Shown here piece by piece: positions 8,131 through 43,590 of a DNA stretch of 46,923 bases. The notes below the pieces were generated by a model. The model saw only the letters and a program-made list of their open reading frames with translations. It was not told the DNA's origin and ran no database searches. The position numbers and the translations under genes were made by a program. Each line of letters starts with the position of its first letter. Within the stretch, counting starts at the first letter, position 1. This DNA is from an uncultured Bacteroidales bacterium (lineage in GTDB: Bacteria > Bacteroidota > Bacteroidia > Bacteroidales > Muribaculaceae), in the NCBI GenBank assembly GCA_947573135.1, contig CANPDU010000026.1, positions 1 through 46,923 of the forward strand, given 5' to 3'.

Positions 8131-8149
8131 ATTTTTAAACAAGCTCTAA
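8131..8149 (+). repeat. Solo copy of the MITE terminal repeat
   Basis: ATTTTTAAACAAGCTC followed by TAA is identical over 16 nt, plus the TAA, to the right end of the MITE-like element at 34664-34961. No inverted partner was found within the intergenic region to its left, so it is a relic or solo end. It lies about 55 nt upstream of the lysS -7 box. Confidence 0.6.
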
Positions 8150-33392: not shown

Positions 33393-34541
33393 TCAATGAC
33401 CGAATTCTCTTAGCAATCTTATGATTTGTCTTACGGTATTTTCTATATTGCGGCATGTTGTATCCGGGTCAAGTGCATCTGAAATTTCGACCGGTGAGGA
33501 GAGGATAGAAAATATTGCCGCAAAACCGGCGTTATTCAGACTATCGGAAAACTCGACAGATCCTCCCAGAGCTACGACAGGTATGCCGTGGCGGCGACCG
33601 GCTGACAATACGCCGAATGGCGTTTTCCCCCTCATTGTCTGGCTGTCGATGCGTCCTTCTCCGGTAATTATCAGATCTGCGCCCTCAATGCGTCGGTCAA
33701 ACCCCACAGCATCAAGAACCATATCGATACCTGGCCGCAGCCGAGCTCCGAGTGCAGCTGCCAACGCGCCTCCGACGCCTCCGGCCGCGCCTGCCCCCGG
33801 CATAACGGATACGTCGACGCCTGTAGCCTCAGCTAAGGCTTTTGCATAAATCTGCATTCCGGCCTCAAGAATTTCTATCGTCGCATCGTCGGCTCCTTTC
33901 TGACGGCCGAATACGCGGCTTGCACCACACGAACCGCAGAAAGGGTTGTCCACGTCGCAGGCTACGGTTATATCAGCCCCTAATATCAGAGGATCAAGAC
34001 CCGACAGACTGATTGATGATACAGCTGCAAGATCTCTGCCGCAACCCTTTCCGCTGATTATATTGCCGTTAATGTCGAAGAATTCCGCGCCGAGGGCGCT
34101 GAGCATGCCCATGCCTCCGTCGTTGGTCGCGCTTCCTCCGATTCCGAGAAGTATTTTCCGGCAGCCTTTGTGTAACGCATCGCGGATCATCTCGCCTGTG
34201 CCGTAGCTTGTCGTCGACAACGGATCGCGCTCGTTCTCGCCGAGCAAAGTAAGTCCGCTTGCCTGAGCCATTTCCATTATTGCGGCACTACCGTCTGCTG
34301 AAATGCCATATATGGCTTTCACAGGCCGCATTAACGGATCGCAGACCGAGACGTTTTGTAACTGTCCGTGCCATGCCTCGGCAAGAGCCTCGACAGTGCC
34401 TTCGCCGCCATCACCAAGCGGGATGCATATTACTTCACAACCCGGCGATTCCTTGAGGATGGCATTACGGCACACATCGGCAAAACGGGTCGAACTGACC
34501 GAACCTTTGTATGAATCTGATGCAATGACGATTTTTTTCAT
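33393..34541 (-). CDS. Glycerate kinase (GarK/GlxK family)
   Basis: A 382-residue kinase phosphorylating glycerate with ATP. Family landmarks: N-terminal MKKIVIASDSYKGSVSS, the IPLGDGGEGTVEAL motif, IGGSATNDGGMGMLSALG, GAGAAGGVGGALAA and LIITGEGRIDSQTMRGKTP. Whether the product is 2- or 3-phosphoglycerate is not deducible. A 60-codon in-frame extension exists upstream but has no family similarity and runs across the promoter, so the start is 34541. It is separated from the sigma54 activator by 114 nt and has its own -7 box. Confidence 0.94.
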   Translation of the reverse strand: MKKIVIASDSYKGSVSSTRFADVCRNAILKESPGCEVICIPLGDGGEGTVEALAEAWHGQLQNVSVCDPLMRPVKAIYGISADGSAAIMEMAQASGLTLLGENERDPLSTTSYGTGEMIRDALHKGCRKILLGIGGSATNDGGMGMLSALGAEFFDINGNIISGKGCGRDLAAVSSISLSGLDPLILGADITVACDVDNPFCGSCGASRVFGRQKGADDATIEILEAGMQIYAKALAEATGVDVSVMPGAGAAGGVGGALAAALGARLRPGIDMVLDAVGFDRRIEGADLIITGEGRIDSQTMRGKTPFGVLSAGRRHGIPVVALGGSVEFSDSLNNAGFAAIFSILSSPVEISDALDPDTTCRNIENTVRQIIRLLREFGH

Positions 34542-34571: not shown

Positions 34572-34663
34572 GACAAAAACTTTGTTATCACAGTGATTAT
34601 TATGTGCGTGATGCCCCCGGAATTGGATTTTCGGCTGAAAAGATATAATTTTGTGGAAAATAA

Positions 34664-34961
34664 GAGCTTGTTTAAAAATAAATGTTGCCGGCAGGGTTGC
34701 ATAGCTTGAGGAGCAGGGCAAAAAGCGCCCAAGATATGCAAAGCAAAGGTAATTTTAAATTAATCAAAACTCTTCCGTAAAGATTTTAAAAGAAATGAAA
34801 AGATGTAAGTATTATAAAAAGAATAGCAGCCGACGGTCATTCGCCGGCATATTTCCGTCTGTTCTTCGGTCGTTATGGAACCCCATAACTCCCTCATCGC
34901 ATCCAAAAATCTGCACGGCGTCTGACCGCCCTGCCAATAACAATTATTTTTAAACAAGCTC
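34664..34961. mobile_element. MITE-like element with 33-bp terminal inverted repeats
   Basis: The 298 bp element begins GAGCTTGTTTAAAAAT (34664) and ends with its inverse complement (34946-34961). Extended over 33 bp the two ends (34664-34696 and 34929-34961) agree at 29 positions, including a second conserved block GGCAGGG. The copy is flanked on both sides by TAA (34661-34663 and 34962-34964), as expected for a 3-bp target duplication. No transposase is encoded; an internal GTTATGG/CCATAAC hairpin is present. GAG-starting ends and TNA targets recall IS5-group transposons (from memory), so it may be mobilised by such a transposase elsewhere in the genome. Confidence 0.75.
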
Positions 34962-34978
34962 TAACTAGTGTCGGATTT

Positions 34979-37039
34979 ATGAATCGACGATTTACATATA
35001 TGCATATTCTTGTCGCGGCTGTTCTTGTTGCGATTGTCACCGCTTGTGCAAGCATAGGACGTCCGGAGGGCGGTCCGCGAGATGAAGATCCGCCGCGCTT
35101 TGTCAGAGCTACACCTGCGCCGGGACAGCTGAAAGTCAGCGGAAACAAGATAACTGTAACTTTTGACGAGAATATTCAGCTCGACGATGCTTTCAACAAG
35201 GTTGTAGTGTCGCCCGTGCAGACTCAGCCGCCGGCAATCAGCTCAAATGCCCGTAACGTAACTGTCGAGTTGCGTGATACAATGCGCCTCAACACCACTT
35301 ATTCGATTGATTTCGGTGATGCGATAAAGGATCTTAACGAGGGAAATATCCTCGATGGTTTCGCTATCGATTTTGCGACCGGTGACACTATCGACACTCT
35401 TCGCATTTCGGGTGTGGTTCTTGAGGCGCGCACTCTCGAGCCGGCTCAGGGGATGCTGGTCGGCGTTCACTCCAATCTTGACGATTCGGCTCTGACCACT
35501 CTGCCTTTTGATCGAATCGCCCGTACTAATCAGTTCGGCCAGTTCACGGTGCGCAATCTCAAACCGGGAACTTACCGCGTCTTCGCGCTCAACGATCTAA
35601 ACCGCGACTATAAATGGGATCGCTCGGAGGACGTGGCATTCTATGATTTTACAGTGTCACCTGTTGTAGAAGATATTGAAGTATGCGATACATTTCTACG
35701 CGCCGACGGCTCGGATTCGCTTGTCAGGCATCCGGGCATAAAATATCTGCCGAATGATGTGCTGCTCACTTGGTTTAACGAAGGCTACAGCCCTCAGTAC
35801 ATGAAAGATTACAGCCGACCTGACCGTCGCCGTATCACACTTAATTTCGCGGCGCCGTCTGACACGCTGCCCGAAATTACAATTGCCGACGGCCGCTTTG
35901 CAGGCCGCAATAGCGACGATTGGGCATTGCCTCAGATAAATTCTACGCGCGACTCGCTGATATACTGGATCCGCGATACGGCGGTGATCAGCACCGACTC
36001 GTTGCGTCTGTCGGTAAAATATCTCAAGACAGATACTGCCGAACAGCTGAGTTGGCAGACCGACACTCTGCGTTTCTTTTTCCGTGATCCCAAGCCTAAA
36101 AAGAAAGACAAGAAAAAAGACAAGGACGAGGAGACAGATACGGTGATAACCGATGCTTTCGGTGTGCCTCAGCCAAAAAATTTCCTCAACTTCAATGTCG
36201 GGGCAGGAGTGGTCGATGTTTATGCGCCGTTGGTCTTTCAGGCCGATCAGCCTATCGACTCGATCGTGCCAGGATCTCTTACGCTTGAAATTCAGGCCGA
36301 CACTCTGTGGAATAAGGTTGCCGCAGGTCCGTTGTTGCCTGATTCTCTTGATCCGCTGCTTAAGCGGCAACTACCGGTGGCTTGGGTGCCGGGGTCAAAA
36401 TATCGGGTAACAATTGATTCCGCTGCGGTTACTGGTATTTATGGGGTGTGGAATAAACCGCTCAAACAGGAGTTCAGTGTCAAGTCTCTTGACGAGTATT
36501 CCAATCTTGTGTTTAATGTCACGGGTCTGGAACCGGATTCTGCCGGTATCATGCCGCATGCCTATGTCGAATTGCTCGGCGGCGATGACAAACCTGTCAG
36601 AGTAGCGCCGGTCATAGGGGGCAGAGCCGAATTCAGATATCTCAATCCGTCGGTATATTATGCCCGTCTTTTTATAGACTCCAATAACAATGGTAAATGG
36701 GATACAGGCAATATAGCTCTCAGCCTTCAGCCTGAGGAAGTCTATTATTACAGTAAAAAGCTTCAGCTCAAGAAAAACTGGGATGTAGAGCAGGCATGGA
36801 ATGTTTATGAGCTTGCTGTCGATGCCCAGAAACCGCTTGCAATAAAGAAAAATAAACCTAAGCCAAAGAAGGGCGAGCGGCTCAACGATAAAGAAGAGGA
36901 AGAAGAGGAATATGACGAATTCGGCAATCCTATCGACGGCAACAATCGTTTCGACCGTTATGATCCGAATAATATCAACAATCGCCGACCGTCTAACTCT
37001 TCGTTCGGTGGCCTGAGAAATCAGGGTCTGTCAAGGTAA
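34979..37039 (+). CDS. Bacteroidales Ig-like (SbsA/Big_5-type) lipoprotein
   Basis: A 686-residue exported lipoprotein (lipobox IVTAC at about residue 23) followed by GGPRDEDPPRF, a sequence typical of this Bacteroidales family. A Big_5/SbsA-like Ig domain covers about residues 40-130 (KITVTFDENIQLDD), then beta-rich segments including a carboxypeptidase-regulatory-like fold (TNQFGQFTVRNLKPGTYRVFAL). A Lys/Asp-rich linker lies near 375-390, and the C-terminus is charged and Asn/Arg-rich. Function is unknown; envelope location is well supported. Its ATG is 17 nt past the MITE end, so its promoter may lie within the element. A nucleotidyltransferase gene follows after 23 nt. Confidence 0.85.
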   Translation: MNRRFTYMHILVAAVLVAIVTACASIGRPEGGPRDEDPPRFVRATPAPGQLKVSGNKITVTFDENIQLDDAFNKVVVSPVQTQPPAISSNARNVTVELRDTMRLNTTYSIDFGDAIKDLNEGNILDGFAIDFATGDTIDTLRISGVVLEARTLEPAQGMLVGVHSNLDDSALTTLPFDRIARTNQFGQFTVRNLKPGTYRVFALNDLNRDYKWDRSEDVAFYDFTVSPVVEDIEVCDTFLRADGSDSLVRHPGIKYLPNDVLLTWFNEGYSPQYMKDYSRPDRRRITLNFAAPSDTLPEITIADGRFAGRNSDDWALPQINSTRDSLIYWIRDTAVISTDSLRLSVKYLKTDTAEQLSWQTDTLRFFFRDPKPKKKDKKKDKDEETDTVITDAFGVPQPKNFLNFNVGAGVVDVYAPLVFQADQPIDSIVPGSLTLEIQADTLWNKVAAGPLLPDSLDPLLKRQLPVAWVPGSKYRVTIDSAAVTGIYGVWNKPLKQEFSVKSLDEYSNLVFNVTGLEPDSAGIMPHAYVELLGGDDKPVRVAPVIGGRAEFRYLNPSVYYARLFIDSNNNGKWDTGNIALSLQPEEVYYYSKKLQLKKNWDVEQAWNVYELAVDAQKPLAIKKNKPKPKKGERLNDKEEEEEEYDEFGNPIDGNNRFDRYDPNNINNRRPSNSSFGGLRNQGLSR

Positions 37040-43550: not shown

Positions 43551-43568
43551 ATTATTTTTAAACAAGCT
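43551..43568 (+). repeat. Solo copy of the MITE terminal repeat in a 5' leader
   Basis: ATTATTTTTAAACAAGCT is identical over 18 nt to the right end of the MITE at 34664-34961. The next base differs (A instead of C) and no left partner lies nearby. It ends 22 nt before the ATG at 43591. Confidence 0.6.
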
Positions 43569-43590
43569 ATTTGTAACTTATTACTTTCGG

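Follow-up and report, generated by a model that had tools for sequence, protein, structure and literature searches.

Insertion sequences of the IS1031 group, which belongs to the IS5 family, have ends starting with GA, encode a DDE transposase of the IS5 family and duplicate a 3-bp TNA target, according to the accessible part of PMC12016507, which lists the ends of a single member. Among the MITEs of Bacteroidales, BrickBuilt and other elements of Porphyromonas gingivalis are intergenic and have GAG ends similar to those of the IS5 family. BrickBuilt is present in 19 copies in one strain and contains 23-nt tandem repeats between its leader and tail, and the accessible sections of that publication do not describe a shared stem-loop (PMC4596501). 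For QMITE2-type MITEs the transcript of the whole element is predicted to be stably folded, and an effect on neighbouring mRNAs is discussed (PMC10969869, accessible text). In ISPpu9 of Pseudomonas a structured leader of the transposase mRNA regulates translation, and two small RNAs are encoded upstream and downstream of the gene (PMC8450116, accessible text). The IS200/IS605 family has secondary structures at both subterminal ends, which are read as single-stranded DNA by TnpA, an enzyme of another class (PMC6006769, accessible text).

Here we describe an element in a stretch of 46,923 nucleotides from an uncultured bacterium of the Muribaculaceae (contig CANPDU010000026.1), which as a whole is referred to as the window. 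The element shares with the IS1031 group the 3-bp TNA duplication (TAA or TTA), the GA-starting ends and, in its full-length relatives, the DDE transposase of the IS5 family, but unlike the members of this group it has no transposase of its own. It resembles the P. gingivalis MITEs in its occurrence in Bacteroidales, its GAG ends and its intergenic position, and differs from BrickBuilt in the absence of the tandem repeats and the presence of a shared stem-loop. Like QMITE2-type MITEs it is predicted to give a stably folded transcript; unlike them, as far as they are described in the text accessible, it has a separate covarying structure inside each end that is common to several element families. 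The ISPpu9 leader is a precedent for the damping of transposase expression that we propose below, albeit in another insertion sequence and another host. In contrast to IS200/IS605, a DDE enzyme of the IS5 family and a target duplication are involved here. No description of the stem-loop or of these elements was found in the literature searched, which left most subscription papers out of reach. The MITE itself is an ordinary new member of a familiar kind, whereas the conserved and shared stem-loop is the unexpected part and the one worth following.

The element and its insertion site

The original prediction described a MITE-like element of 298 bp with 33-bp inverted ends and TAA on both sides, without a transposase inside and located between a glycerate kinase gene and an Ig-like lipoprotein gene. 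All of this was confirmed (Table 1). The longest stop-free stretch of the window copy in six frames comprises 66 aa, both neighbours were identified by their protein families, and the element ends 17 bases before the ATG of the lipoprotein gene. We are highly confident that the element is an IS5-type MITE with conserved stem-loops. It is a non-autonomous element of the IS1031-like kind, the mobilisation of which would occur in trans.

Table 1. Positions of the features discussed in the text, numbered from the first letter of the window.
Feature	Position	Strand	Basis or remark
Solitary 16-bp end	8131-8146	-	beside TTA (orientation of the end), partner end not found
Glycerate kinase gene, divergent neighbour	33393-34541	-	PF02595, 454.7 bits; TIGR00045
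TAATTTTG, -7-like box, probable promoter of the lipoprotein gene	34646-34653	+	
Left TAA of the 3-bp target duplication	34661-34663	.	read directly
MITE	34664-34961		298 bp
Left terminal inverted repeat, 33 bp	34664-34696	+	first 33 bases against reverse complement of last 33: 29/33 identical
Left subterminal stem-loop, remnant	34692-34747	+	covariance model R1, 26.2 bits, E 1.1e-4
TGAGGAG, 7-bp repeat at the site of the missing 49 bp	34707-34713	+	alignment of copies
Right subterminal stem-loop, complete	34828-34933	-	covariance model R1, 94.7 bits, E 3.8e-23
GAGGGAG-hairpin-CGACCGA core with two tandem G.A steps	34866-34895	-	
Right terminal inverted repeat, 33 bp	34929-34961	-	29/33 identical to left end
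Right TAA of the 3-bp target duplication	34962-34964	.	read directly
Gene of (lipo)protein with Big_5 Ig-like domain	34979-37039	+	PF13205
Solitary end, one mismatch (first base)	43554-43569	-	no TAA or TTA flank

The lipoprotein gene is present in 49 of 51 genomes searched, the host included, and 30 of its loci were examined, that is, the window and 29 relatives. Since glycerate kinase was undetected upstream of the gene in 27 of these relatives, only the other two, G010 and G001, are informative on the empty site; their lipoproteins are 80% and 72% identical to that of the window, respectively. In both, the orthologous spacer has about 100 bp and no element, compared to 437 bp in the window. 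Empty sites had been proposed as a check, and with regard to element-free relatives they were found, but a single TAA is not preserved letter for letter in G010 and G001, as these relatives are too diverged. The -7-like box of Bacteroidetes promoters has the consensus TAnnTTTG, and the TAATTTTG box, which ends 10 bp before the element, is kept in both element-free relatives, where 17 and 22 nt separate it from the start codon. It had been suggested that the element may supply or disrupt the promoter of the lipoprotein gene. Probably it does neither, but separates the conserved promoter-like box from the start codon. Judged from this arrangement of the sequence, the insert most likely lies in the mRNA leader of the lipoprotein gene, so that the leader of this Big_5 gene probably carries it. 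A transposase provided in trans would have acted on the GAGCTTGTTTAA... ends and brought about insertion at TAA between promoter and start codon, and the lipoprotein gene would now probably be transcribed through the insert.

RNA that begins at the left TAA and extends slightly beyond the ATG has a predicted folding energy of -100.8 kcal/mol (z -5.7). A generic terminator scan found no terminator-like site in the element on the plus strand, which is the strand of the lipoprotein gene. On the minus strand two such sites were predicted in the right part (34848-34829 and 34929-34915), compared to a mean of 0.3 in shuffled sequences, so that a terminator-like action of the window copy is conceivable. 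In another species (G022, locus L349) a left-end piece of a related element (GAGCTGTCCCATGATAAATG...), preceded by TAA, is located directly upstream of the promoter-like box of the lipoprotein orthologue, and is apparently what is left of another insertion that took place independently next to the gene and was later truncated. In four of 11 host copies a TAnnTTTG box points at the junction from a distance of 9-15 bp. An insertion preference for transcription starts was considered as well, but among 60 further element ends from three genomes a box within 20 bp points towards the end in three cases and away from it in four, and therefore no such preference is claimed.

Copies, solitary ends and the search for a partner

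As had been proposed, the genome of the host, which is 99.91% complete and assembled into 56 contigs with 2.85 Mb, was searched with the whole element and with its ends. The 298-bp query gave 42 matches, the five best besides the element itself at 92-97% identity, and the 16-bp end with at most one mismatch occurs 38 times, compared to zero occurrences of the backward-read control. Eleven copies are complete (216-347 bp): seven have 345-347 bp, one has 344 bp, and the others have 298 bp (window), 263 bp and 216 bp. Ten of them have identical 3-bp flanks, TAA or TTA, the exception being the copy on C30 with TAA and TAT. Four more copies are partial (C42, start of C21, C1, C2). At three other host insertion points (L005, L006, L008), removal of the element in silico gave long open frames across the site. 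The copies are located at unrelated sites of the host genome, as is expected of a MITE. The MITE-like reading therefore stands, on the basis of multiple copies, TAA or TTA duplications and absence from the orthologous place in two relatives; the contrary outcome, a single copy conserved at orthologous positions that are never empty, did not occur.

The window copy (C26) is shorter than the 347-bp form by 49 bp, with the junction at a TGAGGAG repeat, and the inner part of its left stem-loop including the tandem G.A hairpin is gone. The left hairpin was presumably lost via a deletion between two TGAGGAG repeats, while the right one was kept. Copy C13 has the same junction. A common origin of the two deletions was examined and not upheld: over 197 columns there is no letter that C26 and C13 have in common and that C28, C30 and C10 lack, so recurrence at the repeats is equally probable. 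In C18, C26 and C13 either one hairpin or both are missing, yet the target duplications are perfect, which gives no support to a need for the hairpin; its loss may have followed insertion.

Of the 38 16-bp ends in the host genome, 13 are located outside any recognised copy, and TAA or TTA precedes ten of these. Furthermore, two 22-bp GAGCTTGTTTAAAAATAAGCTC-like forms were observed (L036 and L056, each at 1501-1522), one of them with TTA on both sides. Solitary ends and 22-bp forms could be scars of elements that were deleted through their hairpins, and we regard the case for this as evenly balanced. The flanks of the ten ends, the 22-bp form with TTA on both sides and the occurrence of 50-bp forms without stem-loop in the AGTAASTC family (see below) argue for it, but one of the 13 ends (C30:41326) is at a contig edge and apparently belongs to a different element with the same tip. 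Host contig C30 (L151, approximately 425-495) apparently ends inside another insertion sequence, the GAGCTTGTTTAAAAAACTCG... tip of which is preceded by TAA.

The 347-bp form was matched in 29 of 99 genomes, the host included. In G018 two end regions flank a 239-aa open frame (P0001, stop to stop), which is an IS5_3 transposase according to NCBIfam NF033580 'transpos_IS5_3' (171.2 bits, cut-off 110); related transposases also score above the cut-off for PF01609 and PF13340. G025 contains a complete element of 1147 bp with TAA on both sides (CAMWNG010000056.1, L184). Its ends, GAGCCGGTTC..., agree at 19 of their first 20 positions, and its 250-aa frame (248 aa scanned) reaches 161.8 bits with NF033580 (cut-off 110). 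A decayed relative of 1141 bp is present in the Muribaculaceae record JAIDBM010000169.1. Relatives thus contain insertion sequences with similar GAG ends, among them GAGCCGG, the same TAA or TTA duplication and an IS5-family transposase, and the IS5-type relationship, initially deduced from the GAG start and the TNA-like target, was supported. IS1031-type relatives without the stem-loop have GAGCCTGTTTAAATTTT-like ends, TTA or TAA flanks and a length of mostly 855-909 bp (one 1027 bp); one of the two comparisons behind this covered 45 of 84 related-transposase loci. In contrast, the two complete elements with 1141 and 1147 bp are longer, because each of their ends carries a stem-loop of about 100 nt.

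Full-length transposons with related GAG ends were found, but the genomes searched yielded none in which the exact GAGCTTGTTTAA tip is combined with a transposase. With P0001 only broken transposase pieces with GACCCC ends were found in the host, at C22 and C34, which leaves the MITE family in this assembly without a visible partner. A search of the host genome with PF13586 gave no match, and PF01609 revealed one relic and one 420-aa transposase frame that the P0001 search had missed. The first 55 bp of C21 were considered as the transposase end of the partner and rejected. As C34, C42 and C10 also end in this sequence (shortened to 53 bp in two cases) with different flanks, it belongs to another, collapsed insertion sequence, which interrupted a MITE copy. 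This collapsed insertion sequence is seen at L013 1-55, L098 1-55 and the ends of L099 and L100, with the end GGCAGGTTCAACTGGC and a frame ending ...TEFFKQIANFALAS. A further multicopy insertion sequence, itself unseen, has GAGCTTGTTTAAAAAC ends with TAA or TTA flanks (L426, L427, L428, L432 and G044 contig ends); in G044 these GAGCTTGTTTAAAAAC... ends are situated where contigs stop, and they also terminate the stretches examined of four IMG/VR contigs. G044 has 26 of them and no stem-loop match, and the body of this insertion sequence did not appear in three further viral scans or in a plasmid search. No match was obtained among plasmids with the contig end of host C30 as query, nor among phages with the 347-bp element. 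Since exact-tip ends stand at contig edges and at the ends of IMG/VR stretches, a partner with GAGCTTGTTTAA ends may exist outside the assemblies examined.

The subterminal stem-loop

The long MITE copies and the related insertion sequences contain a stem-loop of about 100 nt inside each end, with the shared pattern GARGGAG-hairpin-YGACYGA inside each tip. A pattern search, in which the flanking letters were fixed and pairing was not required, returned 62 distinct contexts, and all inner stems have at least five pairs with highly varied arms. A later set comprises 71 distinct contexts, in which the pair adjoining the outer G.A step is A-T in 41, G-C in 29 and A.C in one; TTTT within the last 12 of the 42 nt after the core occurs in none of them. 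RNAalifold predicted 34 pairs for the 37 sequences that were kept after a 93% identity filter, 32 of them with at least one compensatory change. Paired cells amount to 93.0%, compared to 65.4% in shuffled alignments and 29.5-42.2% with slid partners, and double-change cells to 355 compared to 124.7 in shuffles; none of 500 shuffles, which ignore the relatedness of the sequences that the slid-partner control keeps, reached any of five pairing measures. When folded as single sequences, four sequences adopted the same shape (z -7.3 to -9.0), and the right stem-loop of the window, modelled on the strand reading from the tip inwards, gave -51.1 kcal/mol (z -7.6). Rfam contained no match for the four loci given at E up to 0.5. 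On the evidence of the alignment, the stem-loop is conserved by compensatory change, and this conservation is invisible from a single window.

G.T exceeds A.C by 103 to 16 among 1252 cells, and by 269 to 48 in the matches found by the model. This excess, which is partly favoured by the prediction of the structure with RNA rules, is suggestive only; it would indicate that a single strand is folded, which at either end is the one running inwards from the tip. Of 108 model-found matches, 101-107 retain each of the four G.A columns while the neighbouring pairs change, an invariance that is partly by construction, since the seed sequences were chosen with those letters fixed and the model inherits this bias.

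By covariance model, the stem-loop is present in 41 of 99 genomes, that is, in 40 of 59 of the host family Muribaculaceae (own included) compared to one of 40 of other families, and the match in the latter is weak (E 6.2e-6). One genome has 104 matches; since at most 39 candidates per genome were scored in the 99-genome scan, copy numbers from that scan are lower bounds. The model was also run on 73 of the 84 related-transposase loci. Three IS1031-type loci matched (L185, L233, L253), all titled uncultured Porphyromonadaceae, whereas L258 and 69 further loci did not; the latter comprise 65 genome records titled as other taxa, with the titles taken as given, and four viral contigs. In a set of 75 chosen loci the stem-loop was also found in 'Barnesiella sp. 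WM24' and in a MAG called 'Bacteroides sp.' (L186, L254). The restriction to Muribaculaceae is therefore to be read with the kinship labels of the 99-genome scan and a few names as its basis.

The stem-loop is not limited to elements with GAG ends. A second MITE family of 166-195 bp, with the ends (TA)AGTAASTCTT... and TA on both sides, has one stem-loop per copy, and all 15 full-size copies retrieved (L439-L453) match the model, 12 of 12 from G025 and G027 and three of three from G053. In G027 this family also has two 50-bp forms (L457, L458) in which nothing but the two ends is left and the stem-loop is missing. A third type of element, with (TA)AGTATGTG... ends, is represented by L454-L456 in G027 and L300 in G003, of which L455, L456 and L300 match the model and L454 does not. 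The TA flanks of both families are partly given by the construction of the search pattern. As elements with unrelated ends contain the stem-loop, it is not tied to one set of ends.

Possible roles of the stem-loop

A role at the RNA level is the most likely reading, with the confidence that we place in it being about even. In the related insertion sequence the left stem-loop is located between the tip and the transposase start. Transcripts entering from outside would fold at the entry end of the element, and the folded end would either damp the expression of the transposase or bind a host factor. The MITEs would then have inherited the stem-loop from the insertion sequence. With somewhat less confidence, and thus tentatively, we propose that the structure is a portable module of mobile DNA, serving regulation or survival, and does not belong to any single transposase system; it would act as RNA, probably via a host factor, and several kinds of transposon in Muribaculaceae would have it in common. 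This proposal covers the IS5-type elements with TAA or TTA flanks, which have two module copies each, as well as the TA-flanked MITEs with AGTAASTC or AGTATGTG ends, which have one.

It is possible, if rather doubtful, that a host factor in particular, an RNA-binding or transcription-related protein, reads the tandem G.A steps and that unrelated transposons acquired the module for this reason. The presence of the module in families of elements that differ in their ends and flanks, of which there are at least two kinds, the constancy of the G.A columns next to varying pairs and the near confinement to one family among the genomes searched are all consistent with such a factor. However, recombination might have brought the module into the AGTAASTC elements without its use being common to them, and the constancy of the G.A steps is in part a product of the seed selection.

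The main rival to an RNA role is a role of the DNA in the assembly of the transpososome, where the stem-loop would be folded single-stranded DNA or a cruciform bound by the transposase, similar to the subterminal hairpins of IS200/IS605. This role would fit the subterminal position of the stem-loop, which in the insertion sequence as well as in the long MITE copies is oriented alike at either end, and good folding of the element is also predicted for DNA (z -6.6 and -8.0). Nevertheless we consider it unlikely, since TA-flanked MITEs whose ends are unrelated contain the module too, once in each copy, 69 related-transposase loci under other-taxon titles or on viral contigs gave no module match, an excess of G.T over A.C on one strand would not be expected of a symmetric cruciform, and copies without the stem-loop have good duplications. 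That the structure is a functionless by-product of inverted repeats, formed by end-to-end fusion of insertion sequence ends, is very improbable: MITE transcripts are generally described as stable stem-loops in the accessible text of PMC10969869, but here the covariation is inside each end and not between the ends, lies far above the shuffled and slid controls, and concerns hairpin arms that change together while the G.A steps stay.

What the locus adds to the biology of these bacteria is a stem-loop of about 34 covarying pairs inside the ends of DDE transposons, which occurs at up to about 100 places per genome in one gut family. The covariance model is a ready tool to search for such elements. 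If the RNA role holds true, mobile elements would possess in the stem-loop a portable module for their control, and copies inserted near a promoter, as here, would put this module into the leader of a host mRNA.
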